DNA from: Candidatus Kapaibacterium sp.
GTDB taxonomy: Bacteria > Bacteroidota > Ignavibacteria > Kapaibacteriales > JAEUSM01
NCBI GenBank assembly: GCA_016788785.1
Contig: JAEUSM010000006.1
Span: 372,001-436,000 of the forward strand
Direction: 5' to 3'
DNA: 64,000 nt
The translations under genes were made by a program, and so were the position numbers. Shown piece after piece: positions 6,942-51,242 of the stretch. Positions within the stretch are counted from its first letter, which is position 1, and each line of letters starts with the position of its first letter. The notes under the pieces are model-generated. The model did no database searches, was not told the DNA's origin, and was given only the letters and a program-made list of their open reading frames with translations.

Positions 6942-6980
6942 GTGTGTAAATATCTATTTGCATATTCCGTTTATGAAAGT

Positions 6981-9900
6981 ATGATTACAAAATCCCAATT
7001 TTTTATTATATCTTCTTTACTGTTTTGTGTTGTCTTTACAACACAATGCTTTTCACAATCTTTTTCACTTTTTAGTATTGATACAACCAATTATCCTGTT
7101 CTACGTGCGAAATTTTTGAATGTAACAGCTGAAGGTTTTTTGTCAAACATACCTGAAACATCCTTACAACTAAAAGAAAATTCAGCACCAAGAACTATAC
7201 TTTCCGTTAATTGTCCAATACAAAATCCTCCAAAAACTCTCTCAGCAGTTTTGGCTGTAGATGTTAGTGCATCGATGGGATTTGGTCCTCTAAACGCAAC
7301 AAATATGGTTTTTGCAAAAGCAGCTGCGAATGCATGGATAAATACTTTATTTGTTGGAAATAGCGAGATGGCTCTTACCTCGTTTGATCAGTTTTCTTAT
7401 CTACTTCAAGACTTTACCAAAGACAAAACGAAGTTAAAAAACGCACTTGTTTCGCTTGTGCCTCAAGGGCAAACTGATTTCAATAATGCGTTTCTAACCG
7501 TACCCACGGGAGCAATATCCATTGCAAAAAACGGTAAAAACAAGCGAATAATTCTCTTTGTAACAGATGGAGATGCACCGGATACTGATATTCAAACAAT
7601 TATTAACGAAGCACAGAATAATTCAATTACAGTATATGCTATTAGTATAGGTAGAGATTGTCCACAATCTTTGAAAGATATTTCTCTATCAACAGGTGGT
7701 TTGTGGTTTGAAGATGTACAATCATCTTTACGTGCAGAACAAATATTTTTTGAAATTTTTTCTAAAGAAAGTCAAGTTTCACCTTGTGAAATCACATGGG
7801 AATCACTTAATCAATGTAAAGCAGAAACTATCATAGTATCGTTAGAAAATACAGAAAATAATACCGTCGCACAATTACCCTATACTATTCCACAACGAAA
7901 AAAGGGAACTATTCAAGCCTATCCTGCATCGGTTGCATTTTCAGATTTGCCACTCTTTGTTCCAAAAGATACAACAATTTATTTACGTGCAAATGGTGCA
8001 AATACAACCATTAGTTCAATAACTTCTTCAAACCCTCGATTTTCGGTAACTCCAACAAGTGGTGTAATTTTAGAAAATGATTCTATTCCTGTTGTCATTC
8101 GTTATACACCAACGGATAGTTCATATCAGTGGAGTGAATTTACTATAGAACATTCATTTTGTACAGCAAGCTTTTATTCGAGTGCTCGATATAGCAATGC
8201 TCAGTTTTTTCCAGTTGTTCAACTACTTGCTCCTAATGGTGGAGAGACGTATTTAAGTGGAAGTGATACGCTAATACGTTGGGACGGTATTGCTCCTTCT
8301 GATACCGTTCAGTTGGAATATAGTAATAACAATGGAAAAAGCTGGAATTTGATTGAATCAGCAGTTACAGGAGGTTCCTATCGATGGAAATTACCTAATC
8401 AAATTGGTAATAATTTTTTAGTCAAGGTTTCTTTGACTGGTAAAAACGATATTCTAACCGATGGATGGGCAAAACGAAGTGGAAGTTTTTTTGAAGAAAT
8501 CGGTTATTCGCTTTGCACTGCTTCAGATGGTTCAATTCTTTCCACCGGTTCATTTCAAGGTTTGTCAAGTTTTGGTTCAACAACAATTCAACTAACTTCT
8601 CAAGGTGCTGAGGACATATTCGTTCTCAAAATCCGTCAGGATGGTTCCCCTGAATGGGCAAAAGGAATAGGAGGAATTGGAAAAGATGTTGGCAGAAAAA
8701 TTCTTACTTTATCAGATAATAGCTTTGTCGTTATTGGTACTTTTCATAATCTAATAACATTTGAACAAGGAAATCAGAATCAAAAAACACTTACTTCCAA
8801 TGGAGGTTCAGACATATTCATTGCCAGATATTTGGCTGATGGTACATTTGTCTCTGCATTCAGTGAAGGTGGAGTGGGTAACGATATTGTTAATGATGCA
8901 ACGAGAAATCAACTTGACGAAATTCTTATTACTGGTACATTTACACAAAGTATCAATTTTGGTAATTTTCAAGTATCTTCATCTGGCTTGAGTGATGTTT
9001 TTGTAGCTTCAATTACTCCTCAAGGTTTAATTCAATGGGCGACATCCTTTGGAGGAAGCAATAACGATGAAGGAACTGGAATTGGAGTTAGTACAGATGG
9101 GAGTATTTATGTTGCTGCTACTGTAAAAGGTTCGTTTCCAATTGGTTCATTTCCCATAATTAGTACAGGATTTGACGGTAATATTGCTTTAGTAAAATAC
9201 AACTCCACAAAATCTATTGAATGGGTAGAACAAATTGGAGGAATCTTTGAAGAAACAGCAAACGCTTTAGAAGTAGATGCAAACAACGATATCCTGCTTT
9301 CAGGTACATTTATAGGAACATTCAACCTCCAAAATACTTTCTTCACATCAAATGGACTTGAAGATGCTTTGCTCTTGAAATTTGACAGAAACAAAACCTT
9401 ACTTTGGGGAACAAGTTTTGGTGGAGTAAGTTTTGATAAAATTCGTTCGGTGTATACTGACAATTCAGCTTCTGTCTATTTGGCTGGGTTTGTGGAAAAG
9501 CTTTCTTCCATTGGTAATTCCGAACTTGTTAATTATGGATCTAAAGATGTACTTATTGCCAAATATTCGTCTACTGGAGTCAATGAGTGGGCTATTACTG
9601 CTGGTGGGAATGTAGTTGACGAAGGATATGATGTTTTTGTAGATAACAATGGAAGTGTTTTTTCAACAGGATTTTTCAACTCCAATGCAAGATTTGGAAT
9701 CTTCCCTTTGAACACTTCCAGTGGATTTAATGAGATTTTTCATTGGAAAATCCCAACAATAAGACGAAAATCCTTTGATATTTCCGATACAACTTTTTCA
9801 CTGATTCGTGTTCAACCAATTGCTGACTCTTTAGATTTTGGTGAAGTATTATTACAAACTTCCAAAGATTCAGTATTTCAACAATCATTACGAAATAGCA

Positions 9901-11108
9901 GTCCATTTACAATGGTAATTGACTCTGTATCGTTTGAACCACCTACCGATTTTCGTCTTTTTTCTTCCATTCCTTTCCAATTGAATGCAAATGAAGCAAA
10001 AGATATTGAATATTCCTTTGCTCCAAGTCAACTTGGTTTACGTCAATCTTCGTTGCGATATTGGGTTCGTAGCACAGATACACTCAATAATGCCACTACA
10101 GTAATCAAAGGAGTTGGAGTTCAGCCCCAACTTTTGGTGGAAACTCCCATTATTGATTTTGGAGATGTTGAAGTAAGCACAAATAAAGATACTATTATTC
10201 CAATAGTTTTACGTAATGTAGGAAATGGACCCTTAACAATAGTTGGTTCTTCGATTATAGGACCAAATACTATTGACTTTGTGCAATTGTTACCTTCTTC
10301 TTCTATAACCTTACAACCAAATGATGTCATTTCTACAGAACTCCGATTTTCGCCCAAAGTATTGGGAAGAACACAAAGTACTATCGAGTTTAATTACGAT
10401 GGAGTAGGTGGTAAAGAACGAGTATTTCTTTTTGGGAATGGAATTGATTACAATCAAAGTATATATTCTCTTGGTTGTCAGACCATAGAAACTACTGTTG
10501 GATCACTTGTATCAATACCATTGCGAGTTTCAACCATTAAATCTGGAAACACCTTTTCCAATGAAATTGTGAAAGGATTTATGAAGTTTAATGAAACGAT
10601 ATTAGCACCTATTCAAAATACCCCAAAAGGTGTTGTTATAAATGGAGATAGAATAATTCCATTTGAATTTCCTTTAACAGCTTCTAATGAATTGTCATAT
10701 ACCTTTAGAGTTGGATTGGGAAATGATTCGATGACTTCAATCAGCTTTGAAAATGTGACAATAGAAAATTCTACAGCTGAAATGGAATTAGACAATTGTA
10801 CAGTTTTGGTAACGGATTTGTGCTACGAAGGTGGTACAAGATTAGTCAAGTCAAATAATGCATCGGCAATAGTCTCATTAACTTACAATCAAGCCACTAA
10901 TACCATTGATGTTTTGTTTTCAACCATTGAAGATGGTTCAATGATTTCTTTGATTACGTTACTCGGTACAGAAGTATTTTCAAAGGAAGTTGAAATAAAA
11001 AATTCATTTGTTCAAATTCCTTTTGAGAATTTTGCTAATGGTGTGTATTATATTGTGCTATCTTCACCAACTATTGTGATTTCAAAACCTATAGTTATCT
11101 CACGGTAA
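6981..11108 (+). CDS. Secreted VWA / SBBP-repeat / ASH-domain protein, probable T9SS substrate
   Basis: The product has 1375 residues. The ATG at 6981 places a clean signal peptide (hydrophobic core, CFSQ end) at the N-terminus; an upstream ATG at 6942 would bury it. Order: a VWA domain (about residues 90-270) with MIDAS motif DVSASMG and a later TDGDAPD; an Ig-like domain starting LLAPNGGETYLSG; six or seven SBBP-type repeats of about 50-60 residues, each opening with W-x-x-x-x-GG-x5-G; two choice-of-anchor/ASH-like domains (DFGEVLL, DFGDVEV); and a C-terminal beta domain ending FANGVYYIVLSSP...IVISR that looks like a T9SS sorting signal. Likely cell-surface and adhesive. Translationally close to the T9SS plug gene downstream (2-bp gap). 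Confidence 0.88.
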   Translation: MITKSQFFIISSLLFCVVFTTQCFSQSFSLFSIDTTNYPVLRAKFLNVTAEGFLSNIPETSLQLKENSAPRTILSVNCPIQNPPKTLSAVLAVDVSASMGFGPLNATNMVFAKAAANAWINTLFVGNSEMALTSFDQFSYLLQDFTKDKTKLKNALVSLVPQGQTDFNNAFLTVPTGAISIAKNGKNKRIILFVTDGDAPDTDIQTIINEAQNNSITVYAISIGRDCPQSLKDISLSTGGLWFEDVQSSLRAEQIFFEIFSKESQVSPCEITWESLNQCKAETIIVSLENTENNTVAQLPYTIPQRKKGTIQAYPASVAFSDLPLFVPKDTTIYLRANGANTTISSITSSNPRFSVTPTSGVILENDSIPVVIRYTPTDSSYQWSEFTIEHSFCTASFYSSARYSNAQFFPVVQLLAPNGGETYLSGSDTLIRWDGIAPSDTVQLEYSNNNGKSWNLIESAVTGGSYRWKLPNQIGNNFLVKVSLTGKNDILTDGWAKRSGSFFEEIGYSLCTASDGSILSTGSFQGLSSFGSTTIQLTSQGAEDIFVLKIRQDGSPEWAKGIGGIGKDVGRKILTLSDNSFVVIGTFHNLITFEQGNQNQKTLTSNGGSDIFIARYLADGTFVSAFSEGGVGNDIVNDATRNQLDEILITGTFTQSINFGNFQVSSSGLSDVFVASITPQGLIQWATSFGGSNNDEGTGIGVSTDGSIYVAATVKGSFPIGSFPIISTGFDGNIALVKYNSTKSIEWVEQIGGIFEETANALEVDANNDILLSGTFIGTFNLQNTFFTSNGLEDALLLKFDRNKTLLWGTSFGGVSFDKIRSVYTDNSASVYLAGFVEKLSSIGNSELVNYGSKDVLIAKYSSTGVNEWAITAGGNVVDEGYDVFVDNNGSVFSTGFFNSNARFGIFPLNTSSGFNEIFHWKIPTIRRKSFDISDTTFSLIRVQPIADSLDFGEVLLQTSKDSVFQQSLRNSSPFTMVIDSVSFEPPTDFRLFSSIPFQLNANEAKDIEYSFAPSQLGLRQSSLRYWVRSTDTLNNATTVIKGVGVQPQLLVETPIIDFGDVEVSTNKDTIIPIVLRNVGNGPLTIVGSSIIGPNTIDFVQLLPSSSITLQPNDVISTELRFSPKVLGRTQSTIEFNYDGVGGKERVFLFGNGIDYNQSIYSLGCQTIETTVGSLVSIPLRVSTIKSGNTFSNEIVKGFMKFNETILAPIQNTPKGVVINGDRIIPFEFPLTASNELSYTFRVGLGNDSMTSISFENVTIENSTAEMELDNCTVLVTDLCYEGGTRLVKSNNASAIVSLTYNQATNTIDVLFSTIEDGSMISLITLLGTEVFSKEVEIKNSFVQIPFENFANGVYYIVLSSPTIVISKPIVISR

Positions 11109-11110
11109 AT

Positions 11111-12514
11111 ATGAGAAAAAGTTTCAAATTAATTATAGTATTTTTCTATTTTTTTGTTGTAGGATTTGCGTCATTGCATTCACAAAATCCTATTATTGCT
11201 GTAAGAGCATATGGCGGTTCTAATGAGTTAACACCTCCCGTATTGTTACTCAAAAACAATCAAAAATCTGTTTCGCCAATTGGAGAGGAGACTGTTACTA
11301 TTGAAATGGATGTGTTAACTGAAAATCCTCCACAATTGTTTATTAAATTTGTGCATTGTAATGAACGATGGCTTGAAACAGATAATGTTATTATAAATTC
11401 TCTCGGTATTTTTCAAACTTCTGCAGTTGATTGGACTCAAGCACCTGGTCAGTCTAAATACTTTCGGTGGAGAGGAAAGGTTCAAATTCCTTCTGCTCAA
11501 ATGCAGTTTCCAGTTTCAGGAAATTGGTTAGCAAAGATATATTCGTTAGATAATACAGAAGAAGTTCTCTCTACAGTTAAAATCTTTGTAGTAGAAGCAT
11601 TGATTCCCTCTCGAACAGTTATGATTAATGATTTTTACAAACCAACATCCCGATTTGCTGCAAGTTCAGCTTACAATTATGAAGTGGTAGTTGATGGTAC
11701 TCCAAGACTTCTCGACTTTCAATTAAATACAGTTGCTATGTATAAAATGAATTGGTGGAACAATCCATTATATATTTCGCTCAACAATAATGAAGGGAAG
11801 GATGAATATACCGACGAAGAATTATACGGAGATGGGGAAAGTATTGATAATACTTCTCCCAAAAACAACCCACATCGTCAACAACTTTCTTCAAGTATAA
11901 CTGATCAAGGACCTTTTCCAATGAATATTTCTGGTTTTGCGAATGTAAGAAAAATGTTTCGAGTAAATAATGTTCCTTCAGTTAATGAATATAGAATATT
12001 TGATTGCTCTAATCCTGGATTGTTTCCTTTTGTAGAAGAAGGAATACAACTACCATTTCGCGATTTACGTAGAAGAAATCAGTTTTTAGAATATGCAGAC
12101 GATGGTTTTATCGTAACTTCAAGAGTTAGTCAGTTTGCTGATGAATATATTAGGGTTGAGTTTGTGTTAGACCCAGAAAAATTACCCGTTGAAAAATCAG
12201 TCTTTGTTGTTGGTTCTTTCAACAATTGGACGCCAACTCGTGAATGGGAGATGTCTTTTGACAATGAAAGGGAAGTTTATTCTTTAAAACAGTGGATAAG
12301 AAGAGGAAGACATAGTTACCTTTATGGAATTGGCTCGTTAAATTTTGAAAAAAATAACGTTGAAGGCTTGTCTTTTGAAGAATTTGAAGGAAATACAATC
12401 CATTCACGACAAACAATGATAAGTTTCGTTTATTATCGTGAATTACAATACGGAGGTTATGATGCAATCATCAGTGTTAGTGCAGTCAATTCACAAGGCA
12501 CTTTCCAACGATAA
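11111..12514 (+). CDS. Type IX secretion system plug-domain protein (DUF5103-like)
   Basis: The product has 467 residues with a signal peptide ending LHSQ (about residues 1-25). The mature N-terminus (PIIAVRAYGG...PPVLLLKNN) and the following KFVHCNERW and SAYNYEVVVDG segments match the family whose member Plug closes the lateral pore of the SprA translocon in the T9SS. The C-terminal VFVVGSFNNWTPTREWEM stretch is the carbohydrate-binding-like (CBM48/AMPK) part that ends many DUF5103 proteins. It lies between a probable T9SS substrate and a glycosyltransferase, with gaps of 2 bp and -1 bp, so the three are almost certainly one operon. Confidence 0.85.
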   Translation: MRKSFKLIIVFFYFFVVGFASLHSQNPIIAVRAYGGSNELTPPVLLLKNNQKSVSPIGEETVTIEMDVLTENPPQLFIKFVHCNERWLETDNVIINSLGIFQTSAVDWTQAPGQSKYFRWRGKVQIPSAQMQFPVSGNWLAKIYSLDNTEEVLSTVKIFVVEALIPSRTVMINDFYKPTSRFAASSAYNYEVVVDGTPRLLDFQLNTVAMYKMNWWNNPLYISLNNNEGKDEYTDEELYGDGESIDNTSPKNNPHRQQLSSSITDQGPFPMNISGFANVRKMFRVNNVPSVNEYRIFDCSNPGLFPFVEEGIQLPFRDLRRRNQFLEYADDGFIVTSRVSQFADEYIRVEFVLDPEKLPVEKSVFVVGSFNNWTPTREWEMSFDNEREVYSLKQWIRRGRHSYLYGIGSLNFEKNNVEGLSFEEFEGNTIHSRQTMISFVYYRELQYGGYDAIISVSAVNSQGTFQR

Positions 12515-13554: not shown

Positions 13555-15957
13555 ATGTCAATTCAAAACGAAAAGTTAGCTCGATATACACAAACACATA
13601 CACCAGTAACAAATTTACAACAAAGTAAAAAAAGAAATATATTTGCCTTAGTACGAGATTCAATCTATTTCCAAAACTTCGTTTTGGTTATGATTATTTT
13701 TACAGGAATCCTTGTTGGAATTGAAACAAATAAAGATTTGATGGGCTCTTATGGCACATTAATTCGATTGTTAGATTTGCTAATTGTCAGTGTGTTTGCA
13801 ATAGAAGTTTTAGTAAAAATATTTGCTGACGCAACAAAACCATGGAAATATTTTTTAGACCCTTGGAATGTCTTTGACTTTGTCATCACTTTAGCCTCAA
13901 TTATCCCACTTTTCTTTTCATTACATTACGAACTTATCAATGTTTTACGCATTATTAGAGTATTACGGATTATTCGATTAGCACACGAATTGCCCCGATT
14001 AGAATTAGTCGTTGGAACAGTGTTACGTGGTATTCCAGCACTTTCTTCAGTAATACTATTTATGGTATTACATTTTTATGTATATGCTGTTTTGGGTGTA
14101 TTTTTCTTTGGTTCTCCAACTCCTCCGGTTGGAGATGAAAAACATTTTGATACTATTCCGACAGCCATGTTAACACTATTTAAAATTGTTACCTTTGACG
14201 ATTGGTCTGAAATACTTACAAGTACCATTCTAGCTAATTCGACTATACCAGAGACAGTGATTAATCTCTTTTTTATCAGCTTCATCGTTATCGGAGCGAT
14301 GGTTATTTTAAACTTATTCATTGGAGTCATCACTTCAGAAATGGCAGAAATGAAAATAAGTGAAGCAAAAAAACTCATTGAGTACAAGGAACATACTATT
14401 ATTTTAGGTTGGAGTTCGCAAGTGTTTACTATAATTCGTGAACTTGCAATTGCAAACCAATCTGAAAAAAAGTCGCTGATTGTTATACTTGCCGATCAAC
14501 CTCATTCTCTTATGGAGCAAGAAATCAAGGTTAAAGTTGGAAAAACAGGAAAAACTCGAGTACTATGTCGTACAGGAAATCCTTTTGATTTGGCTGATTT
14601 AGCAATAGTTGCACCACAAAATGCAAAATCAATTATCTTATTGCGAGTTGAAGGTGATTTTGTTCAACCAGATTCTCATATATTCAAGATTATTTTAGCA
14701 GTTATAAATCACCCACAAAGAAGCGACGAGCCGTATTCGATAGTAGCACCTCTTGCAGATATTGGGAATTTTGATATAGCAAGTGATATTCCTAAAATTG
14801 TAGATAAAGAAGATAAGATTCAATTTATTGTCACAGATGATCTTATATCAAGAATTATAACCCAAACATGCCGCCAACCCGGACTTTCTGACGTTTATTC
14901 CGAATTACTGTCATACGCAGATAATGAGATATACTTCTATCACCATTCATTTTTGATTGGTAAAAAGTTTGAAGACATACTTCATTTCTTCAACGAAGCT
15001 ACTGTTATTGGAATTTGTCATTTTGACAAATCAATGGAAATTAATCCAAACCCATCTACTGTATATAAAGAAGGTGATAGTGTTATTGTCATTGCTGAAG
15101 ATGACTCAATGATTGATAAACCTCGTGCTATTCCCTATTCATCTAATGTTTCTAAGTTTGCAGATGTCGTTTTACGAACACAAAAACCAGAAAGAACACT
15201 TATTATGGGTTGGAATCACCGTGTTACAATGATTATTAACCATTTAGACAAATATCTGACAAAAGAATCAGTTATTGACGTTGTAGCAGATTTTGATAAA
15301 GGAGAAGAGGTTATTCGCAGACGTTGTTCTGATTTGAAAAATTCTATTGCAACATTCAGACAGGGATTAACAACTGAACGATTGATGATAGAACAAGTTA
15401 TAAATAACGACTATGACCATATCATTATTCTTAGTAATGAATCCGCAACTTCAGCACAAGAGGCAGATTCTCAAACAATGTTCACGTTGTTGCATATTCG
15501 AGCAATAACACAAAATGATCATGAATTTTCTTTAGTTTCAGAAATGTTAGATGATAGAAATAGACAAATTGCTGCTGTTACAAATCCGAACGATTTTATC
15601 GTTTCAAACAAAATAGATTCACAAATGATGGCTCAAATTAGCGAAAATGCTTTTTTGATGGATATCTTTAATTATCTTTTAGACCCTGTTGGTTCAGAAA
15701 TTTATTTGAAACCATTTGATAGGTATATTAAAGAAAATGAAGAAGTTGATTTTCATTCTGTGATTGAATCTGCAAAACGATATAATGAAATTGCAATAGG
15801 ATATAAACTTCATTGGAAAAACACTCCAACGAAAGAAACTTCGGCAAAAAGTGTGTTCATCAATCCAACGAAAAATCAAAAAATTCGATTCAAAAAGGGT
15901 GATAGAATCATTGTCATATCAGAATATGAATATGATTTGAATATTTCAAAACTCTAA
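13555..15957 (+). CDS. Voltage-gated-type cation channel fused to CASTOR/POLLUX-like RCK domains
   Basis: The product has 800 residues. Hydrophobic segments near 41-57, 70-91, 103-121, 128-145, 160-186 and 235-261 fit S1-S6 of an ion_trans pore. S4 carries Arg at 132, 135, 138 and 141, one every third residue. The pore loop reads TFDDWSE (213-219), the position of TLESWAS in NaChBac and TLDDWSD in the engineered Ca2+ channel CavAb. Residues from about 280 on form two RCK-like halves: HTIILGWSSQV (280-290), CRTGNPFDLADL (338-349), CRQPGLSDVYSELL (439-452) and LIMGWNHRV (549-557). These match the plant CASTOR/POLLUX pattern, where GW replaces the usual dinucleotide GxG. Divalent cation conduction is inference. 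No TxGYG potassium filter is present. Confidence 0.88.
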   Translation: MSIQNEKLARYTQTHTPVTNLQQSKKRNIFALVRDSIYFQNFVLVMIIFTGILVGIETNKDLMGSYGTLIRLLDLLIVSVFAIEVLVKIFADATKPWKYFLDPWNVFDFVITLASIIPLFFSLHYELINVLRIIRVLRIIRLAHELPRLELVVGTVLRGIPALSSVILFMVLHFYVYAVLGVFFFGSPTPPVGDEKHFDTIPTAMLTLFKIVTFDDWSEILTSTILANSTIPETVINLFFISFIVIGAMVILNLFIGVITSEMAEMKISEAKKLIEYKEHTIILGWSSQVFTIIRELAIANQSEKKSLIVILADQPHSLMEQEIKVKVGKTGKTRVLCRTGNPFDLADLAIVAPQNAKSIILLRVEGDFVQPDSHIFKIILAVINHPQRSDEPYSIVAPLADIGNFDIASDIPKIVDKEDKIQFIVTDDLISRIITQTCRQPGLSDVYSELLSYADNEIYFYHHSFLIGKKFEDILHFFNEATVIGICHFDKSMEINPNPSTVYKEGDSVIVIAEDDSMIDKPRAIPYSSNVSKFADVVLRTQKPERTLIMGWNHRVTMIINHLDKYLTKESVIDVVADFDKGEEVIRRRCSDLKNSIATFRQGLTTERLMIEQVINNDYDHIIILSNESATSAQEADSQTMFTLLHIRAITQNDHEFSLVSEMLDDRNRQIAAVTNPNDFIVSNKIDSQMMAQISENAFLMDIFNYLLDPVGSEIYLKPFDRYIKENEEVDFHSVIESAKRYNEIAIGYKLHWKNTPTKETSAKSVFINPTKNQKIRFKKGDRIIVISEYEYDLNISKL

Positions 15958-16792: not shown

Positions 16793-19700
16793 TTATCTTC
16801 TGATAACTAAAGAAGATACTGCTGTTTTTCTTCCAGAACGTACTAATATCTTATACGTACCTTGTTCAAGGTCTTTTGCAGAAAGTGTTGCATCGAATAC
16901 ATCACCAGTTAATACAAAGTTTTGAACCAATCTGATTCTTCCTAAATAATCCATAATTGTAACTTCAGCATCTCCTTCGGCACCAGTCAGGTGGATTTGG
17001 AAGTTCGTTGCTACAGGATTTGGATATACAAATGAATTGGAAGACATTTCAATCACACTCGCATTTGTTGAATACAAAGGATGTCGTTGAATTATAATTT
17101 GACCAGTAGTGTCACTGTTTTCAACAACTTCAATTTGTCCATTAGAGGCTAAAAACCCAACTTTAGATGCTTCATATTCAAAAAATCCTAATTCTAAATT
17201 ATCTAACTCTACAAATCCATTATTAGAACTTATAGCATAATCTGAAACTTTGCCGTTGTTATCATTTAGCATAATGATTACTCCAGGTTCTGTAATAGTA
17301 GAACTTGGTTGTTCACGTTGCTTTCTTCCAAATTTTAGACCCGCAGCTTCTGAATAAACATTTCCAGTCCACTTATGGATTCCTTTGGTACCATCAGTTG
17401 CTTCCAATCGAATTGTTGGAATTTGTGTTGTTAATTGAGTAGTTATTGGAATTTCCGTTGCATCTATCCAACTTCTTGGCGCAGATACAGCTTGGAAATT
17501 TGCATAGCCAGGTATATATTCCTTAGTTTTAGGAATTGCTAATATGACATAAGTACCTTGTTTAACATTTTTTAAAGTCCAAGTACCCAATATTGAGCTA
17601 ACAATTGTCTCTGTAGAAGTAATTTCTGGAATTGGGATGATTTGTCCAGATTCATTTTTAATTCTATGAGCAATTATTATGGCTTCCACTCTTTGTCCAG
17701 AACTATTCTCCACAATACCATTCATAACATATTGTGTAGGAACTTCAGGAGTCAAAACAAAGTTGATAGCAGATTTATTTTGAGTATTTATATCAACAGT
17801 CGTTGCTTGAACAATTGATGAAGCTTTATCAAAATATTGAGAGTTATAATCAACTGCTGAACAGAATACTAAGTATTTTTGTGTAGCATCAATTGTTGAA
17901 TTATAAGTTCCATTAGTAGTAGATACTACTTCTGTTACATCTCCTATTTTTTGACCAGCAGAATTTACAGGGATAAATCGAACACTTGCAACCAAATTTG
18001 CTCCAGCAGAATTTGTCACTCTTCCACCAAAATTCATCGTGGTGGTACTTGATGGATTAGCAATATTATTGAAATCAATTACTTGATTTTGATTACATTC
18101 AGTAGTTACAGTTTCTGCATCTTGAATGGAAGTTCCATTATAGTACCATTTTGATTGATAATTTACCCCACTAAACTGCAATTTGTAATTACCAGCAGGT
18201 AAATGTAATGAGTATGCATTATTTACAATAGCAGCTTCATAGGTCATAATCATATCAGTATTGATTTGTTGATCAATTCTATGAGCAGTTATTTTTGCAT
18301 TAGTTACATTGTGGTTATTTGCTGTTATGATTCCACCTGTTACACTAACACATTTTACGTTGTACCATTGTGGTGGCAAACAAGTTGTTACTGTAACACT
18401 GTATTGTTGTGTATCTCTAATTGCAGTGTTGTACGAAGAAGTAACAATTGTTTGGAAATTATAGATTCCATTTGATTGTGGCGTCCAATTGATTGCTCCA
18501 TTCATTTGATTGAACGAAACTCCTGACGGTGGATTTACAATTGAATGCATAACCGAACCTAAGGTCGTCTTTTTCAATGATGGAGTATAAGAATAGACAC
18601 TATCTTTACAAGTACTCAAAATTGGAGCGGAATTATACTTCAAGGTATCCGCATTAAACGAAATTGTTGATGAGGTTCCTGCTGGAAATTCAGCAATTGA
18701 AGATGCAGGTCTCAAACGAATGGTATGAATTCCATGTTGAATTCTTTGATCATTAATTTTTGAGATTTTGTATGTTCCACCATTAGAATTTAACGTTCTT
18801 GCAATAGAATCAATAACTACAAAAGTAGATGGATTTGAACCTGAACCATATTCAATATATATCTTCGAGGTTGTGGAATCTTTAGGAGTAATCACCCAAT
18901 TAAAATGAATATTTCTTACAGAATCTCTAACTTCTGTTGTTGTAACCACATCAGTAGCAGTAGGAACTACTCTGGTTAGATCACTAGTTGTAGGAGGACC
19001 TGTTTTTGGATCTTTTGGTTGTTCTCCGATAATGACTAATGCTGTTGGAACTACATCATAAGTGTATTTTCTGTGTGGATTAACTCCATTATCTGTAAAC
19101 ACATAGTTTTCAACCGTTGTATCTCGAGGTACAACTGCCAACACTTCAAATTGTGCTTCTGTATTATCACCATTGATACCAAAATCTTTTCTAACAACAT
19201 AAAATTTATTAGAGCGAATAGCATTCGTTTGTAATGACCAATTCAATCTAACTGAGACCTTATTCGTATCAGGAATTACCGTAGTTAATGTTGCAGGTAC
19301 ATCAAATGGATGAAGAGTAGAAACAGATTTTGTTTCAGTGTAAACGTACCCTAAATCATTTTTAGCAAACGCTCTGTAATAATACAATGTAGAGTCTTTA
19401 AGATTGGTAATGTTTGTACCAAACAATCCTGTTCCTGAGCCAACAACAACCTTAGTTCCTAAAGTGACTGTTAAACTATCAGCACTTCTGCTGTAAACAA
19501 ATCCACGTTCTGTTATAGGATTATTACCATCATTGATTACATTTGCAGAAACTCCAAACGAGAAAGGACGTACTCCCCAAATTGTGTCATTTTCTACAGT
19601 TGCAGTAATATAATGATCAAACCCACTCAACCAAAAATTGTCGATACCTTGAGAAGTTCTAACAATTCTTGTCGTAGCTTGGTCAGGATTGAAATCTGAA

Positions 19701-21130
19701 GAATCTTGAAAAGATCCAGCACTTCCTATTTTTTTCAAAGTTTGGTTATAGAATAAAGAAGTTAATTTTTCATCACCAGCACCACCAGTTGTTTTCACAA
19801 AATTAAATGATAGGTTAGCAGATGAATAACTCGCAAAGAAATTATCTAAATTTCCTTTACTTGGTATCATTGTAGCACCATTACTTGGGTCAAAATCAAC
19901 TAAAGAACTGAAATTTCCGCCCAAAAGGATTGAGTTTTGCCATGAGTCAATAGCCAATGAAGAACTAATGTCACTACCAGTACCACCAATAGAAAAGCCT
20001 TGTTCATACGAACCATCTGAAGCTAGATACTTACCAACAAATATATCAGTAGAACCTTGGGAAATTCTAATTGCACTTCCACTATTTGGATCTAAATCCA
20101 TTGCAGAAGTAAAATTTCCACTTACGAAAATGGAAGTTACATTATTTGAATTTTTCACTGCTACCATGTCTGTTAGTGAGACATTACCAGTAGAAGATTC
20201 AAATTGTTTAGCATATTCGAGGTTTGTCGAAGAAGAAAACTTCAATAAAGCAGCATCTTCTCCAATTAGACTTGTTAATAGCGTAGCATTGTTAGTTGGG
20301 TCTGCGTCAAAAATACCAGTAAACTCAACACCAATGTAAACATTTTGATTTTCATCTACTGTAATGGTTTTACCTTTACTACTATTTGTTCCAGAAAGAA
20401 TAGTAGCAGTAATAATTGCACCATTTTTATCAACTAATTCAAACCATAAATCATCCCAAACTCTCGGAATTTTGGTTAATGCAGCAGGTCCAGCATCCAA
20501 GTCAATTGATCCAGTTGTTGAACCAGTCATATATATACGACCAACTGGGTCAATAAAGAGGTCATATACATTACAAGTACCTACAGTTGTATGGGTTGTA
20601 TCAAATTTTCTTGCAAAAATTAACTCCCCTGTAGAAGAATATTTAGCATAAAAACCTGCTAAATCAACATTTGCAGTCATTTCGGTAGCTGAAAAACCCG
20701 GATCAAAATCCACTGTTCCTTTGAACTCTCCAATGATGACAATATTTCCTTCAAAATCAACAGCATGCTTGCGTACATTGATTGAGGAATTACTGGTTGC
20801 AGTACGAATTTGTTTAGCCCAAACTAATTCTTCTGAAGAAGAGTATTTGGCAATAAACCCATCCTGAGTACCAGTAGGATTGAAAATTGTGGAAGTTGGA
20901 CCTGGGTCAAAATCAACACCACTGTTGAAAACACCTGCGACAATGCTATTACCATTGTCATCTACAGTAATACTATTGGCAATTTGTTTTTGAGAACCTC
21001 CAATAGTAACAACAGATTTTAACCTTACGTTTTGTTCTGCTGCTTCAGTTTTTACAACTTCAAATGCTCCGATTACGAGGAACAAAAGAATAGTCCATGT
21101 TACCTGACTAATTTTGAAGAAATTTTTCAT
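16793..21130 (-). CDS. Very large secreted multidomain protein, T9SS substrate
   Basis: The product has 1445 residues. I chose the ATG at 21130, which starts MKNFFKISQ and puts the hydrophobic signal segment first; in-frame ATGs at 21136 and 21253 would extend it. Residues of about 30-520 are repeats of 50-60 residues carrying an (V/L)DFDPG-type motif and FxAKYSSxxE, like SBBP/delta-60 beta-propeller blades. Fibronectin-like domains follow (GFVYSRSADSLTV; WSLQTNAIRSNKFYVVRKD), then an Ig/cadherin-like domain, several carboxypeptidase-regulatory-like beta sandwiches, and a C-terminal T9SS type A domain (VYPNPVATNFQIHL ... GTYKILV). Probably exported and surface-anchored. The native role is unknown. 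Confidence 0.9.
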   Translation of the reverse strand: MKNFFKISQVTWTILLFLVIGAFEVVKTEAAEQNVRLKSVVTIGGSQKQIANSITVDDNGNSIVAGVFNSGVDFDPGPTSTIFNPTGTQDGFIAKYSSSEELVWAKQIRTATSNSSINVRKHAVDFEGNIVIIGEFKGTVDFDPGFSATEMTANVDLAGFYAKYSSTGELIFARKFDTTHTTVGTCNVYDLFIDPVGRIYMTGSTTGSIDLDAGPAALTKIPRVWDDLWFELVDKNGAIITATILSGTNSSKGKTITVDENQNVYIGVEFTGIFDADPTNNATLLTSLIGEDAALLKFSSSTNLEYAKQFESSTGNVSLTDMVAVKNSNNVTSIFVSGNFTSAMDLDPNSGSAIRISQGSTDIFVGKYLASDGSYEQGFSIGGTGSDISSSLAIDSWQNSILLGGNFSSLVDFDPSNGATMIPSKGNLDNFFASYSSANLSFNFVKTTGGAGDEKLTSLFYNQTLKKIGSAGSFQDSSDFNPDQATTRIVRTSQGIDNFWLSGFDHYITATVENDTIWGVRPFSFGVSANVINDGNNPITERGFVYSRSADSLTVTLGTKVVVGSGTGLFGTNITNLKDSTLYYYRAFAKNDLGYVYTETKSVSTLHPFDVPATLTTVIPDTNKVSVRLNWSLQTNAIRSNKFYVVRKDFGINGDNTEAQFEVLAVVPRDTTVENYVFTDNGVNPHRKYTYDVVPTALVIIGEQPKDPKTGPPTTSDLTRVVPTATDVVTTTEVRDSVRNIHFNWVITPKDSTTSKIYIEYGSGSNPSTFVVIDSIARTLNSNGGTYKISKINDQRIQHGIHTIRLRPASSIAEFPAGTSSTISFNADTLKYNSAPILSTCKDSVYSYTPSLKKTTLGSVMHSIVNPPSGVSFNQMNGAINWTPQSNGIYNFQTIVTSSYNTAIRDTQQYSVTVTTCLPPQWYNVKCVSVTGGIITANNHNVTNAKITAHRIDQQINTDMIMTYEAAIVNNAYSLHLPAGNYKLQFSGVNYQSKWYYNGTSIQDAETVTTECNQNQVIDFNNIANPSSTTTMNFGGRVTNSAGANLVASVRFIPVNSAGQKIGDVTEVVSTTNGTYNSTIDATQKYLVFCSAVDYNSQYFDKASSIVQATTVDINTQNKSAINFVLTPEVPTQYVMNGIVENSSGQRVEAIIIAHRIKNESGQIIPIPEITSTETIVSSILGTWTLKNVKQGTYVILAIPKTKEYIPGYANFQAVSAPRSWIDATEIPITTQLTTQIPTIRLEATDGTKGIHKWTGNVYSEAAGLKFGRKQREQPSSTITEPGVIIMLNDNNGKVSDYAISSNNGFVELDNLELGFFEYEASKVGFLASNGQIEVVENSDTTGQIIIQRHPLYSTNASVIEMSSNSFVYPNPVATNFQIHLTGAEGDAEVTIMDYLGRIRLVQNFVLTGDVFDATLSAKDLEQGTYKILVRSGRKTAVSSLVIRR

Positions 21131-21379
21131 AAACATCTTTCTACGATATAGAAGATAAAAGTAAATTGTTTCGATATTTAGGGCAAAAAAGGGGTAAGAA
21201 CTCCCAATTCGTAGCAACTTGATACTAAACCTACGGTCAAGTATCATGTACAACTACGATTAAGATATAAAAAAATTCTATTTATACAAAATATCTTAGA
21301 ACTTTTTTTCCTGAGTACGTGTTTTTGTTACTTAAAACTAAATTACCATAGGATGCAATAGGAATCACAAAATCAAATA

Positions 21380-45270: not shown

Positions 45271-45280
45271 TTTGAATGAA

Positions 45281-47158
45281 ATGACAGCTGAAGAAATATG
45301 TACCCAAATACAAGAATTTAAAAGTTTCAAATCTATTTCTAAAGAAGTAATTGAAAATGAAATTACGAAACTTGAAGGCTATGAACTTTCTTTGAACTTG
45401 ATTTCACCTCAAAATGAAAATAATGAGATTCAATATAGTTCAATTAGTTCAGAGATAAAGTTATTATTAGCAACACGGTATAAATTCCTTGGACAATACC
45501 AAAATGGGGAAAAGAAGTTGCTTGAAATAATAGATTCTAAATACCAATTAAATCAATTTAGTAAAGCAAAAGCATATAACATTTTGGGAAACATATATGA
45601 TGACCAAAATGATTATGTACAAGCACTTTCTAGTTTTTTTCATTCTAAATCAATTTATGAACTAAACCATGACGTAGAAAATCTATCAGGTGTTCATATT
45701 AACATTGCAAGAGTTTATACCAATTTAGGAGATTATCATCAATCGTTACAATTTGTATTTTTTGCCCTCAATGAATTCGAAAAGTTGAAGAACAAAAAAG
45801 GAATTTCTTACTCTTTAAACATGATAGGTACAAATTATAGGTTTTTACAATTGTATAATCAAGCTTTAGAGTACTTTTTAAAAAATTTACAAATTGATGA
45901 AGAACTAAATATACCTATAGAAATAGCATCTTCACATTCTAATTTAGGCATAATTTATTCTTTAATTGATGACAATATTCAAGCACTTTTTCATATGTTA
46001 AAAGCTTATGAAACATTTGATAAAATTGATAATAAACTTGAACTTGCAAATTGTAGCATTAATTTAGGTATATTCTTTATGAAAGTTCAAGACTTTGAAA
46101 AGGCATATATTTATTTAAACAAAGCTTTAGAATCACACATACTTTTAGAAAATGAATATGGAATTGCAGTTTGTTACCATAACTTAGGAAATTATTTTCT
46201 TCAAACAACTTTTGATGACTTTGATAAATCATTAGAATATCAACATAAGGCACTTATTGGATTTTCAAAAATTCTCCACAAAGAAGGGCAAATGAATTGT
46301 CATAAATCATTGTCAGATTTGTATAAAAAGCAACATGATTTTGAAAATGCTTTGTATCATATTGATTTTCACTATTCTATAAAAAATGAAATTCAATCCG
46401 ACGATCTTAAAAATAAAGCACTTCTTTTTGACCAACGTCGTAAAATTGAAGAAGATGAAAAAGCTCGTCAATTAAAACTCGCTCGATTCCAAGAACAAGA
46501 GAAAATTCTTCATAATATTCTTCCCATTAATATTGCAGATAGAATTCTCAATCAAGAAACCTTTATAGCAGACCACTTCCAATCAGTTTCAGTTCTTTTT
46601 ATGGATTTGGTTGGGTTTACTTCTCTTTCTTCCATTGCACCTCCAAAACAACTTGTGTACTTACTTGATACCATTTTCACAAAAGCAGATGAAGTAGTCG
46701 AGTCATTTGGTTTAGAAAAAATCAAAACCATTGGAGATGGATATTTAGCGGTTGCCAATGTAACAACTCCTCTCGAACATCACCAAAAAGCTACAGCACT
46801 TGCATCACTCAAACTTCTCGAAACAATGCGAGATTTTACAGTGAATATTCCAACAGAATTGGGAGAAACCGATTGGATTAACAATATGAATGACATTGAA
46901 ATTCGCATTGGCATTCACACTGGCGAAGTTGTCGCAGGAATCATTGGCAAAAACAAATATACCTACGACCTTTGGGGAGATGCAGTGAACGTTGCTTCAC
47001 GAATGGAATCCAACTCGGAACCAGGTCGTATACATGTTAGTGATGAATTTGCAGAGTCTATCGAAAATAACCCTGAATTCTCACTCATATCCAGAGGAGA
47101 AATTTCCATTAAGGGCAAAGGAACAATGAAGACATTTTGGTTGGAGAAGAGGATATGA
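45281..47158 (+). CDS. TPR-adenylate cyclase 1 of array
   Basis: The product has 626 residues. The ATG at 45281 is preferred to a TTG at 45272. About eight TPR units (residues 60-365) are followed by the coiled linker DQRRKIEEDEKARQLKLARF, the transducer LPINIADRIL and the catalytic domain (about 440-620). FMDLVGFT and KTIGDGY hold the two metal Asp; KTIGD and YDLWGD give ATP specificity; VNVASR the catalytic Asn/Arg. The DNA of the catalytic half is a mosaic: its first part is nearly identical to cyclase 3 and its last part to cyclase 2. It ends in the shared MKTFWLEKRI with an ATGA overlap. Confidence 0.95.
   Translation: MTAEEICTQIQEFKSFKSISKEVIENEITKLEGYELSLNLISPQNENNEIQYSSISSEIKLLLATRYKFLGQYQNGEKKLLEIIDSKYQLNQFSKAKAYNILGNIYDDQNDYVQALSSFFHSKSIYELNHDVENLSGVHINIARVYTNLGDYHQSLQFVFFALNEFEKLKNKKGISYSLNMIGTNYRFLQLYNQALEYFLKNLQIDEELNIPIEIASSHSNLGIIYSLIDDNIQALFHMLKAYETFDKIDNKLELANCSINLGIFFMKVQDFEKAYIYLNKALESHILLENEYGIAVCYHNLGNYFLQTTFDDFDKSLEYQHKALIGFSKILHKEGQMNCHKSLSDLYKKQHDFENALYHIDFHYSIKNEIQSDDLKNKALLFDQRRKIEEDEKARQLKLARFQEQEKILHNILPINIADRILNQETFIADHFQSVSVLFMDLVGFTSLSSIAPPKQLVYLLDTIFTKADEVVESFGLEKIKTIGDGYLAVANVTTPLEHHQKATALASLKLLETMRDFTVNIPTELGETDWINNMNDIEIRIGIHTGEVVAGIIGKNKYTYDLWGDAVNVASRMESNSEPGRIHVSDEFAESIENNPEFSLISRGEISIKGKGTMKTFWLEKRI
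46408..46533 (+). repeat. 126-nt block identical to 50492-50617
   Basis: The linker region of cyclase 1 and that of cyclase 3 are the same base for base over 126 nt, and continue with only scattered silent changes for about 250 nt more. The TPR halves upstream are much more diverged. This points to gene conversion or very recent exchange. Confidence 0.9.
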
Positions 47159-49404
47159 TGCTCGAGGAATTACAAGAAAAACTTCAATTAGCGACTGAAG
47201 AACAAAAACGAGGAAATGCAAAAAATGCTGAAATTCTTGCACAAGAAATTCTAACACATTTAGATTCTTTCTCAGATGATATAAATTCCGAAGAAAATAA
47301 TTCTGAACAGAGCATTCAAATTCATACAATCAGAGCAAGGACAATGTATTTGTTAGGATTTTGCTCAGCTCGATTAAGTGATTATGATAAATCAATTCAA
47401 TATTTAAATTCCTCAATTATTATTGCTGAAGAATTTAATTTACAAGAAATAATAGCTGAATGTTATAATGGATTAGGAAATACATACTCTAATCTTGGTG
47501 ACAAAAACCGTTCTATGAATTATTATTTGCAAGCTCTTGAAATTTTCGAAAAGCTAAATATGTTAAATAAGATAGCTTTAGTCAAATCAAATATTGGCTT
47601 AATTCAAGATGATTTGGGATTATATGATTTAGCAATTGAGAATTTCACTTTTTCTTTAGATGTTTACGAGAAGTCCCAGGATATAGAATCATTAGCACGT
47701 ATAACTAGTTATTTAGGGAATTTATATGTAGACATCTCCTCAACAGAAAAGGCAATGGAGTATTATTTACGTTCCTTATCTTTAAGTGAAGAAATTGGTA
47801 ATAATCATAGCGTTGCTACAGTACTATGTAATATTGGAACTCTTTATAACAAACAAGGCTCATTTCAAACTGCTTTACAGTATTACAATAATGCTCTTGA
47901 AATATATAGTGTCTTAGATGATAAAGCTAAAATCGCATTAATATTTAGTGCCATTGCAGTTGTCTACAGAGGTCTAGGTTCGTATGAATTAGCAATTGAG
48001 TTTATTAGAAAATCTTTAGATATTAATCAACAAATCAAAAATAAAAACGGCGTTGCAAATAATTTATTAAATATAGGAGTAATTTATGGTAACTTAAAAT
48101 CAAATGACAAAGCAAAAGAGTATATTAGTGAAGCACTCACTATTTATGAAGAAACTGGTGATATTTTACCTATTGTTCATTGTAAACTTCAAATTGTATT
48201 AGTTCATATTAAATTAGATCAATTTGAAAAAGCAAACAGTCTTTTACTCCAATTAATGCCAATGGTTGAAAATCTTGGAATAAAAAAACACATCGTTTTA
48301 TGTTATTCAAATTTGGGTACAACATATTCAGGATTACATAACTATCAAGAAGCAAAGAAATATTTCGTAAAAGCATTATACATTCAAAAAAATGAAATAA
48401 AAACAGACGAAGGCATTGCTAATCTTCTCATTTCATTAGGTGAAGTTTTTTTGTTCGAAAAAGACTACAAACAAGCAATCTCATATTTTAAAGAGTCATT
48501 AGAGCTTTCTACTAAAACACAAGACAAAATACAAATTTGCAAAGGTCACAAGTATCTTGCAGAAGTCTATTCTCAATTACATAATTGGAAAAAATCGGAT
48601 TTTCATTTTCGACAATTTTATGAAATTGAAAAATCCTTACATAAAAATGAAGTAATAGTAAGTGCTGAACGTTTTGACATAGAACGAAAAGCAGCTAATC
48701 GAGAAAAGGAGCTCGCAATTGAAAAAGCTCGATTCTTGGAACGTGAAAGTATTCTCAAAAACATTCTCCCAGATTCTGTCACAAATAGATTGGTAAAAGG
48801 TGAAAATCCTATTGCAGATTACTTTCAATCTGCAACTGTTTTATTTTTTGATATTGTTGGGTTTACAGCACTTTCATCTTTTATTCCTCCAAAACAACTT
48901 GTGTATTTACTTGACAATATATTCTCAAAAGCTGATGAGATTGTTGAGTCGTTTGATTTGGAAAAAATTAAAACAATTGGCGATGGTTATCTTGCCGTTG
49001 CGAATGTAACAACTCCTCTCGAAAATCACCAAAAAGCAACTGCATTGGCAGCACTCAAACTTCTCGAAACGATGAAAGATTTTACAGTGAATATTCCATC
49101 CGAATTAGGTAATACCGATTGGATTAAAGATATGAACGATATTGAAATTCGAATTGGTATTCACACTGGCGAAGTTGTCGCAGGAATCATTGGCAAAAAC
49201 AAATATACCTACGACCTTTGGGGTGATGCAGTGAACGTTGCTTCACGAATGGAATCCAACTCGGAACCAGGTCGTATACATGTTAGCGATTCGTTCGCAA
49301 AAACAATCGAAAATAACCCTGAATTCTCACTCATCCCACGTGGAGAAATCACTGTCAAAGGCAAAGGAACAATGAAGACATTTTGGTTAGAGAAGGGGAT
49401 ATGA
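47155..49404 (+). CDS. TPR-adenylate cyclase 2 of array
   Basis: The product has 750 residues, the longest of the set. Its ATG at 47155 overlaps the cyclase 1 stop as ATGA. About eleven TPR units of 40 residues fill residues 55-480. The linker differs from its siblings (FDIERKAANREKELAIEKARFLERESILKNILP). The catalytic domain keeps FFDIVGFT, KTIGDGY, YDLWGDAVN and VNVASR, so it should be active on ATP. The last 160 bp are nearly identical to cyclase 1. It ends MKTFWLEKGI, with the next start codon inside the end of the gene. Confidence 0.95.
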   Translation: MMLEELQEKLQLATEEQKRGNAKNAEILAQEILTHLDSFSDDINSEENNSEQSIQIHTIRARTMYLLGFCSARLSDYDKSIQYLNSSIIIAEEFNLQEIIAECYNGLGNTYSNLGDKNRSMNYYLQALEIFEKLNMLNKIALVKSNIGLIQDDLGLYDLAIENFTFSLDVYEKSQDIESLARITSYLGNLYVDISSTEKAMEYYLRSLSLSEEIGNNHSVATVLCNIGTLYNKQGSFQTALQYYNNALEIYSVLDDKAKIALIFSAIAVVYRGLGSYELAIEFIRKSLDINQQIKNKNGVANNLLNIGVIYGNLKSNDKAKEYISEALTIYEETGDILPIVHCKLQIVLVHIKLDQFEKANSLLLQLMPMVENLGIKKHIVLCYSNLGTTYSGLHNYQEAKKYFVKALYIQKNEIKTDEGIANLLISLGEVFLFEKDYKQAISYFKESLELSTKTQDKIQICKGHKYLAEVYSQLHNWKKSDFHFRQFYEIEKSLHKNEVIVSAERFDIERKAANREKELAIEKARFLERESILKNILPDSVTNRLVKGENPIADYFQSATVLFFDIVGFTALSSFIPPKQLVYLLDNIFSKADEIVESFDLEKIKTIGDGYLAVANVTTPLENHQKATALAALKLLETMKDFTVNIPSELGNTDWIKDMNDIEIRIGIHTGEVVAGIIGKNKYTYDLWGDAVNVASRMESNSEPGRIHVSDSFAKTIENNPEFSLIPRGEITVKGKGTMKTFWLEKGI

Positions 49405-51242
49405 CATCAGAAGTAATACAAAAAGTAATCGAAAAAATAGAAAATTTATTGAGAACTTTTAAAAATGAAGAAGCAAAGGAATTAGCTTTTGAACTATTGG
49501 AGCAACATGAAATCTTAGATGATGTAGAATCACTTGCTAAAGTATATAGTACTCTTGGAATAGTTTATTATCATTTATCTGATTTCATAAATGCAATTGA
49601 GTATTTTGATAAAGAATTTTATATATTACAAGATACTGAAAGAAAAGAAGAAATTGCACATAACCTCAAAAATATTGGAACTGCCTATGCTTCTCTTAAC
49701 AATAATGTAAAAGCATTAGAATGTTTTGAAAAAGCCCTACAAATAAATGAAGAAATTGGAAGAAAAGATGGCATTGCTTCAAATTATGGTAATATTGGGA
49801 TTATTTATAGTTCTCTAAATGATTATTCAAAAGCATTAGAATATTACGAAAAAGCACTTCAAACAAATGAAGAAATTGGAAGGATAAAAGGAATTCCATT
49901 TAATTTAGGTAATATTGCGAATGTTTATAGTTCTCTTTTTGACTATTCGAAAGCTTTAGAATATAACAAAAAAGCTTTAGCAATTTTTGAAGAAATTGGT
50001 CATAAAGTAGGAGTCGCCGATAAGTTACATAGTATTGGAATAATCTATAGAAATTTTCTCGATTATCCAAAAGCTATTGAATATTATAAAAAAGCTTTAT
50101 TCTTAAATGAGGAAATGGGAAGAAAAGCAGGTATTGCAGCTAACCTCGGTTGTATTGGTAATATTTATTCGGATCAATTAGAATACCCAAAAGCATTAGA
50201 ACATATCAAAAAATCTTTAGACATCAATAAAGAAATTGGTAATAAAATTGGAATTGCATATAATCTTTTAAACTTGGGAGTTACTTATAAAGAAATTGAA
50301 GAATTTTCAACTGCGTTAGAATATATTCGTCAATCTTATTCTATTGCAGAAGAAAACAAATCCTATGATATCATGATGAATTGTATTGAACAATATTCTC
50401 AGATATATGAAAAAAAAGGTGATATAGTACAAGCATTTTCATATTACAAACAATACATTGCTTTAAAAGATGAAATTCAATCTAAAGAAAGTAAAAATAA
50501 AGCACTTCTTTTTGACCAACGTCGTAAAATTGAAGAAGATGAAAAAGCTCGTCAATTAAAACTCGCTCGATTCCAAGAACAAGAGAAAATTCTTCATAAT
50601 ATTCTTCCCATTAATATCGCTGATAGAATTCTCAATCAAGAAACCTTTATCGCAGACCACTTCCAATCAGTCTCTGTTCTTTTCATGGATTTGGTTGGGT
50701 TTACTTCTCTTTCTTCCATTGCACCTCCGAAACAACTTGTGTATTTACTTGATACCATTTTTACGAAAGCAGATGAAGTAGTCGAGTCATTTGGTTTAGA
50801 AAAAATTAAAACAATCGGTGATGGATATTTAGCAGTAGCGAATGTGACAACACCGCTTGAACATCACCAAAAAGCTACAGCACTAGCAGCACTCAAACTT
50901 CTCGAAACGATGAAAGATTTTACTGTGAATATTCCATCTGAATTAGGCAATACTGATTGGATTAAAAATATGAAAAACATTGAAATTCGAATTGGCATTC
51001 ATACTGGAGAAATAGTCGCAGGAATTATTGGTAAAAACAAATACACATATGATCTTTGGGGTGATGCAGTGAACGTTGCCTCAAGAATGGAATCCAACTC
51101 AGAAGCAGGTCGTATTCACATTAGCGATGAATTTGCACATTCTATTGAATCTCACTCAGAATTCTCCCTCATCCCACGTGGCGAAATCACCATCAAAGGC
51201 AAAGGTACAATGAATACCTTTTGGTTGGAGAAGGGGATATGA
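49401..51242 (+). CDS. TPR-adenylate cyclase 3 of array
   Basis: The product has 613 residues. The ATG at 49401 overlaps the previous stop (ATGA). Eight or nine regular TPR units of 40 residues (SKALEYYEKALQTNEEIGR type) cover residues 35-350. The linker DQRRKIEEDEKARQLKLARF is the same as in cyclase 1 at DNA level. Catalytic motifs FMDLVGFT, KTIGDGY, YDLWGDAVN and VNVASR are intact. It ends MNTFWLEKGI and overlaps cyclase 4 by 4 bp. Confidence 0.95.
   Translation: MTSEVIQKVIEKIENLLRTFKNEEAKELAFELLEQHEILDDVESLAKVYSTLGIVYYHLSDFINAIEYFDKEFYILQDTERKEEIAHNLKNIGTAYASLNNNVKALECFEKALQINEEIGRKDGIASNYGNIGIIYSSLNDYSKALEYYEKALQTNEEIGRIKGIPFNLGNIANVYSSLFDYSKALEYNKKALAIFEEIGHKVGVADKLHSIGIIYRNFLDYPKAIEYYKKALFLNEEMGRKAGIAANLGCIGNIYSDQLEYPKALEHIKKSLDINKEIGNKIGIAYNLLNLGVTYKEIEEFSTALEYIRQSYSIAEENKSYDIMMNCIEQYSQIYEKKGDIVQAFSYYKQYIALKDEIQSKESKNKALLFDQRRKIEEDEKARQLKLARFQEQEKILHNILPINIADRILNQETFIADHFQSVSVLFMDLVGFTSLSSIAPPKQLVYLLDTIFTKADEVVESFGLEKIKTIGDGYLAVANVTTPLEHHQKATALAALKLLETMKDFTVNIPSELGNTDWIKNMKNIEIRIGIHTGEIVAGIIGKNKYTYDLWGDAVNVASRMESNSEAGRIHISDEFAHSIESHSEFSLIPRGEITIKGKGTMNTFWLEKGI

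Follow-up and report, generated by a model that had tools for sequence, protein, structure and literature searches.

Does a single bacterial gene join a voltage-gated pore of the Nav/Cav type to the ring of RCK domains known from the nuclear CASTOR channels of plants and, if so, what would such a channel sense and conduct? The question is raised by one gene in a stretch of 64,000 nucleotides from Candidatus Kapaibacterium sp., referred to here as the window. RCK rings are familiar mainly from K+ channels, transporters and plant CASTOR-type Ca2+ channels; here the ring appears to sit on a Nav/Cav-type pore that carries its own voltage sensor. If functional, such a protein would show that modules for pore and ligand ring are freely exchanged between classes of ion selectivity, and it would provide a single-gene homotetramer in which to study a gating ring and S4 acting on a Nav/Cav gate. 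It would also be a full-length bacterial relative of CASTOR/DMI1, which is represented by rings only in the copy of the PDB that was searched, and a possible means by which bacteria couple signalling to voltage and Ca2+.

One reading frame with a channel half and a ring half

The gene is a single uninterrupted open reading frame of 800 codons (Table 1). A preliminary description of the locus had proposed that a Nav/Cav-type voltage-gated pore and a CASTOR/POLLUX-type double RCK are combined in one protein, and Pfam searches bore this out, with matches to Ion_trans (PF00520, residues 38-267, E 6.7e-44) and Castor_Poll_mid (PF06241, residues 429-522, E 3.4e-30) in the same chain, together with a Slo-like_RCK match at residues 278-368. 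No NCBIfam model matched the 800-aa protein. The motifs listed in that description were all found where it had placed them, namely the S4 arginines R132, R135, R138 and R141, TFDDWSE at 213-219, GW at 285-286 and 552-553, and CRTGNPFDLADL and CRQPGLSDVYSELL. An AlphaFold2 model of the whole single chain, built from a 49-sequence alignment, reached a mean pLDDT of 87.3 and a pTM of 0.75.

The pore half alone matched Nav and Cav channels among the PDB sequences, the best single-domain chains being of the NaChBac type (about 117-125 bits). When a pore-only model was compared by Foldseek, NavAb and CavAb were the top matches (E down to 4e-10) and NaChBac was matched as well. Residues F81, E84 and D108, at the gating-charge-transfer positions, and R132, R135 and R138 are identical in all five intact fusions described below, with Arg or Lys at position 141 across the five. 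Taken together, alignment and model show this half as a predicted six-transmembrane (6TM) pore whose voltage sensor looks complete. Identity as a K+ channel was rejected, TVGYG and TVGFG being absent from the protein.

The isolated C-terminal half retrieved CASTOR and DMI1 as its only matches among the PDB sequences (E about 1e-60 to 1e-53; 6.6e-61 for CASTOR 6o6j), and Castor_Poll_mid scored 104.6 bits against a curated cut-off of 26.7. Foldseek on the whole-chain model returned the CASTOR/DMI1 rings first (TM by target 0.91) and then whole Slo1/BK channels. VIA-align superposed the model on the CASTOR/DMI1 rings with Z 41.2-42.3 and an rmsd of 2.3-2.4 Å over about 495 residues, both RCKs being aligned in the case of 6o6j (Z 41.7, 2.3 Å, 493 residues). 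The preliminary description had allowed that this half might be an ordinary TrkA-N/RCK pair; the profile search found it CASTOR-like instead. TrkA_C reached 24.4 bits, below its cut-off of 27, TrkA_N was unmatched, and the match to CASTOR/DMI1 is seen in both sequence and fold. These comparisons assign residues 278-792 to the CASTOR/DMI1 family as a full gating ring with two RCKs in tandem. The same genome holds no further Castor_Poll_mid protein above the family cut-off.

Table 1. Features of the fusion gene in the window and positions of the related f3 genes on their own loci
Feature	Position	Strand	Basis
Complete gene for a 6TM channel of 800 aa with two RCK domains in tandem (ATG 13555 to stop 15957)	13555..15957	+	ORF, Pfam, fold model
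Voltage sensor S1-S4, residues 37-145	13663..13989	+	Helices in model, conservation in fusions
S4 arginines R132, R135, R138, R141	13948-13977	+	Conservation in fusions
S5, pore helix, filter, P2 helix, residues 160-227	14032..14235	+	Pfam Ion_trans, pore-only model
Selectivity filter TFDDWSE	14191-14211	+	Pore-only model vs NavAb/CavAb/NaChBac
S6, one helix into cytoplasmic linker, residues 233-271	14251..14367	+	AlphaFold2 model
RCK1, residues 278-522	14386..15120	+	Pfam, 6o6j alignment, Foldseek, VIA-align
Predicted Ca2+ ligands (CASTOR equivalents)	within 14461..15105	+	Alignment to 6o6j; ligands from PMC6697748
S303 (CASTOR S345), predicted ligand	14461-14463	+	Alignment to 6o6j
D402 (CASTOR D442), predicted ligand	14758-14760	+	Alignment to 6o6j
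Castor_Poll_mid within RCK1, residues 429-522	14839-15120	+	Pfam
E458 (CASTOR E493), predicted ligand	14926-14928	+	Alignment to 6o6j
D516-D517 (CASTOR D553, D554), predicted ligands	15100-15105	+	Alignment to 6o6j
RCK2, residues 546-792	15190..15930	+	6o6j alignment, Foldseek, VIA-align
f3 fusion, locus L047	5955-8360		
f3 fusion, locus L048	6603-8918		
f3 fusion, locus L046	6707-8983		
f3 fusion, locus L049	7889-10183		

Relatives and distribution

Intact fusions were found in five of the 123 genomes of the window's order: that of the window itself, which belongs to family f1, and four genomes of family f3 (G019, G083, G086 and G093), distributed over three genera. The f3 fusions are 758-801 aa long and share 29-34% identity with the window protein, and Ion_trans and Castor_Poll_mid are present in all five. 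The window fusion is thus not unique, having at least four intact relatives, and because these come from four more genomes of the order the fusion gene is confirmed as real and not an assembly accident. The window copy sits inside a 645-kb contig, and the GC3 of its two halves (0.245 and 0.213) matches that of the neighbouring genes (0.20-0.22). Another copy (L088, G084:C17:1-1500) spans the junction, is frame-broken and is cut by the contig end; its frame break lies in a run rich in T immediately ahead of S6, where sequencing error and decay are not separable. An f3-type pore is cut at a contig end in G087. One f3 genome, G093, carries a stand-alone CASTOR-like channel with two transmembrane helices (2TM; contig C68) in addition to its fusion (C76).

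No fusion was found outside the order in samples of 391 genomes of the class and 395 of the phylum, in the order of G137 (44 genomes) or in the class of G429 (245 genomes); the large class and phylum searches scored about two candidates per genome, so that a few fusions were possibly missed. Ordinary 2TM CASTOR-like channels are common in class and phylum genomes outside the order, and two longer open frames that stood out, in G818 and G164, proved to be ordinary 2TM stand-alone proteins. Among 72,556 plasmids there was no fusion; 2TM CASTOR-like channels are borne by plasmids of Deinococcus and Streptomyces, and the only plasmid match above 80% query coverage (H3, Streptomyces) is a 2TM protein. 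Searches of IMG/VR with two short patterns gave no relative, and a single short-pattern search of the whole genome collection, which with the plasmids made up the coverage of bacteria outside the phylum, gave two stand-alone pores only. In searches of open-access papers, no account appeared of an RCK ring combined with a Nav/Cav pore or of a bacterial CASTOR fusion, so the concern that many proteins of the same domain order might already be described finds no case there. The protein presents known modules in an undescribed, functionally suggestive order.

Predicted calcium sites of the ring

The CASTOR ring contains three Ca2+ sites with the side-chain ligands D442 (and D444), E493, S345, D553 and D554, and D442 and E493 mutants show no nodulation (PMC6697748). 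Five of these six Ca2+/Mg2+ side-chain ligands are identical in the window protein at an overall identity of 31%, the exception being D444, replaced by G404; the chance of such a match is 0.012, treating sites as independent. Sites II and III of the window ring are predicted to be intact. Site I is doubtful and may be lost, because D444 and the CASTOR residues H463, R589 and R590, which belong to cluster I and the inter-lobe contacts, are not kept. The retention of ligands is not special to the fusion, since four or five are also present in several of the stand-alone proteins. Many stand-alone bacterial rings have three or four of the ligands, so the family may have sensed Ca2+ from early on. 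Among the fusions, variation at the positions of CASTOR D553/D554 and S345 is seen in the two that have diverged furthest.

Selectivity filter

Compared with the pattern T-L-[ED]-x-W-x-[DE], the filter TFDDWSE keeps the acid at position 3 and Trp at position 5 and has Phe for Leu at position 2. It resembles the CavAb filter and equals it in the number of acids per subunit, and passage of Ca2+ or other divalent ions had been argued from this likeness. The argument is not supported as stated, since position 4 is Asp (Asp216) and not Gly as in native prokaryotic Cav channels of the CavMr type. The nearest characterised group is that of the AnclNavs, which includes CavMr and NavPp (PMC7041947). 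CavMr, with the filter TLEGWVD, is Ca2+ selective, a property conferred by Gly at position 4, and NavPp, with TLEDWTD, is Na+ selective and blocked by Ca2+ (PMC7041947). Conversion of the NavPp filter to TLEDWSD still allowed no Ca2+ passage, whereas the D4G exchange did (PMC7041947). The earlier claim is weakened because AnclNavs that have Asp at this position are Na+ selective or blocked by Ca2+ (PMC7041947).

The filters of the f3 fusions read SFEGWSW (L049), AFEGWSW (L046), SFEGWSG (L047) and MFDTWAE (L048), with Gly at position 4 in three of the four. These differences suggest different ion selectivities within one architecture, and selectivity may vary among members because the window protein has Asp where three f3 fusions have Gly. 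Judged by the filters, Ca2+ is the more likely ion for the f3 proteins, and the window protein is compatible with Na+, Ca2+ or both.

Comparison with known systems

The whole C-terminal ring is homologous to those of CASTOR/POLLUX/DMI1 (6o6j, 6o7c, 7vm8; about 30% identity, Z about 42), with the RCK placed directly after the pore helix and five of six Ca2+-site side chains in common. The plant CASTOR-type pore has four predicted TM segments and the filter AD(S/A)GNHA, in contrast to the 6TM voltage-gated pore and TFDDWSE of the window protein. The bacterial 2TM CASTOR-like proteins, annotated as 'potassium transporter TrkA' or 'NAD-binding protein' and found in the same order, Deinococcus and Streptomyces, share the linker position and an RCK part up to 45% identical; unlike the window protein, they have two TM helices, a filter region such as TLDGGVIS or TLDPGTMGGD, and no voltage sensor. 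Channels of the BacNav/AnclNav type (NavAb, NaChBac, CavMr, NavPp) share the 6TM fold and the S4 arginines, carry a TxExW-type filter that TFDDWSE matches in part, and have stand-alone homologues in the same order that are 35-46% identical, but their C terminus is a short tail or a coiled coil and they lack an RCK ring. The plan of voltage sensor, pore and tandem RCK in one subunit is that of Slo1/BK and of bacterial 6TM or 2TM RCK K+ channels. Slo1/BK has a K+ filter, whereas the window pore is of the Nav/Cav type, and BK rings match by fold at only about 15% identity. Over the whole-chain model, VIA-align matched BK from residue 28 to about 797 (Z about 25, for example with 8s3e). The window protein thus joins the plan of BK to a CASTOR ring and a BacNav/BacCav-like pore.

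Junction and origin of the fusion

The junction lies at about residues 262-279. The distance from the 'IG' motif of S6/M2 to a conserved His on the first strand of the RCK is 25 residues in the window protein, 27 in all four f3 fusions and 27 in every stand-alone CASTOR-like protein with a recognised motif, a comparison that rests on few independent events. The segment after S6 in the window protein, ITSEMAEMKISE, is similar to ITNEIAELK of stand-alone pores, and the f3 members L047 and L048 have RGK(S/T), which recalls LRKGKS, the linker in stand-alone CASTOR-like proteins. Linker length and these likenesses place the crossover just behind S6.

Both parts occur as separate genes in the window's order, as 2TM CASTOR-like channels and as stand-alone 6TM pores, and three genomes (G115, G012 and G037) each contain one of either kind. 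Across the set, stand-alone pores are up to 46% identical to the window pore and stand-alone rings up to 45%. Because the parts occur separately within the same order, the fusion is best read as a pore swap, in which a stand-alone Nav/Cav-type pore would have taken the place of the 2TM pore in a CASTOR-like channel from bacteria.

In the ring tree and in the pore tree, the window protein stands apart from the f3 fusions and nearer to stand-alone genes. This would mean two fusions if the placement is right, in trees with long branches and with one-clade tests that are not decisive (p 0.03-0.21): the AU p was 0.055 for the RCK tree without CASTOR, 0.034 with CASTOR and 0.21 with wider sampling, and the pore tree gave p 0.21. 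A one-residue gap before the filter, common to the f3 pores in the alignment and absent from the window protein, could be derived within f3. That a depolarising counterpart of BK, responding to voltage and to cytosolic Ca2+ through a CASTOR-type ring, was assembled twice independently, in the window's family and in f3, out of stand-alone pore and CASTOR-like genes from their common order, is a tentative idea that we hold with some doubt.

Proposed gating and alternatives

From its composition, gating of the window protein by voltage and ligand is plausible. The protein is probably a tetrameric cation channel gated by voltage and by cytosolic Ca2+, with a BK-like layout in which a Nav/Cav-type pore has been swapped onto a CASTOR-like ring. 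It would assemble as a homotetramer held together by the RCK ring, a task that in stand-alone pores is expected to fall to a C-terminal coiled coil. Depolarisation would move S4 and loosen the S6 gate, and cytosolic Ca2+ bound between the RCK1 lobes (E458, S303, D516, D517, D402) would shift the ring and pull on S6, the two inputs being additive as in BK channels. The open channel would admit Na+ and/or Ca2+ and leave the cell depolarised or its Ca2+ raised.

It is rather unlikely, though worth serious consideration, that the ring senses something other than Ca2+, such as a nucleotide, Na+/K+, pH or another metabolite, so that voltage and this other ligand, but not Ca2+, would gate the channel. 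RCK domains as a class bind ions or nucleotides (PMC6957272), CASTOR is modulated by Na+/K+ and perhaps by unknown factors (PMC6697748), and the missing equivalents of D444, H463, R589 and R590 agree with another ligand; however, GW stands in place of the glycine-rich dinucleotide motif, and the ligand residues of sites II and III are all kept. A ring that serves only in tetramerisation and trafficking, replacing the C-terminal helix of the pore and leaving a purely voltage-gated channel, is improbable: the S6-RCK linker is near the CASTOR-like length and the Ca2+ ligands have persisted at about 30% identity, even though ring interfaces alone would hold a tetramer and the stand-alone pores of the same order end, as judged by eye, in probable coiled-coil tails. 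More improbable still is a vestigial voltage sensor on a protein ligand-gated like CASTOR, which does have extra TM helices dispensable for conduction (LjCASTOR-2TM), since fusions that are 29-34% identical show little or no variation at the S4 arginines and the charge-transfer positions. An assembly artefact, a chance read-through or a pseudogene, as the frame-broken G084 copy near a contig end might suggest, is ruled out by the four intact relatives of 758-801 aa, and the window frame is itself intact within its 645-kb contig.

Genomic surroundings

The neighbours of the fusion gene encode a glycosyltransferase, a T9SS plug-domain protein and a methyltransferase, and they give no functional operon clue, the f3 fusion loci in other genomes having different neighbours. 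The plug-domain protein (PF17116) is encoded at 11111-12514 of the window and a 1486-aa protein with Por_Secre_tail at 16793-21253, flanking genes that point to type IX secretion in a source organism of Bacteroidota/FCB type. Elsewhere in the same genome (G000, contig C15; L086 485-1561, minus strand) there is an ordinary 358-aa 2TM K+ channel with TVGYGD and an RCK tail. Positions 6942-11108 of the window encode a 1388-aa protein with a VWA domain and HYDIN/ASH-type Ig-like domains, and four consecutive, slightly overlapping open reading frames of 619-755 aa, with TTG starts in the ORF list, occupy 45272-53299 on the plus strand.
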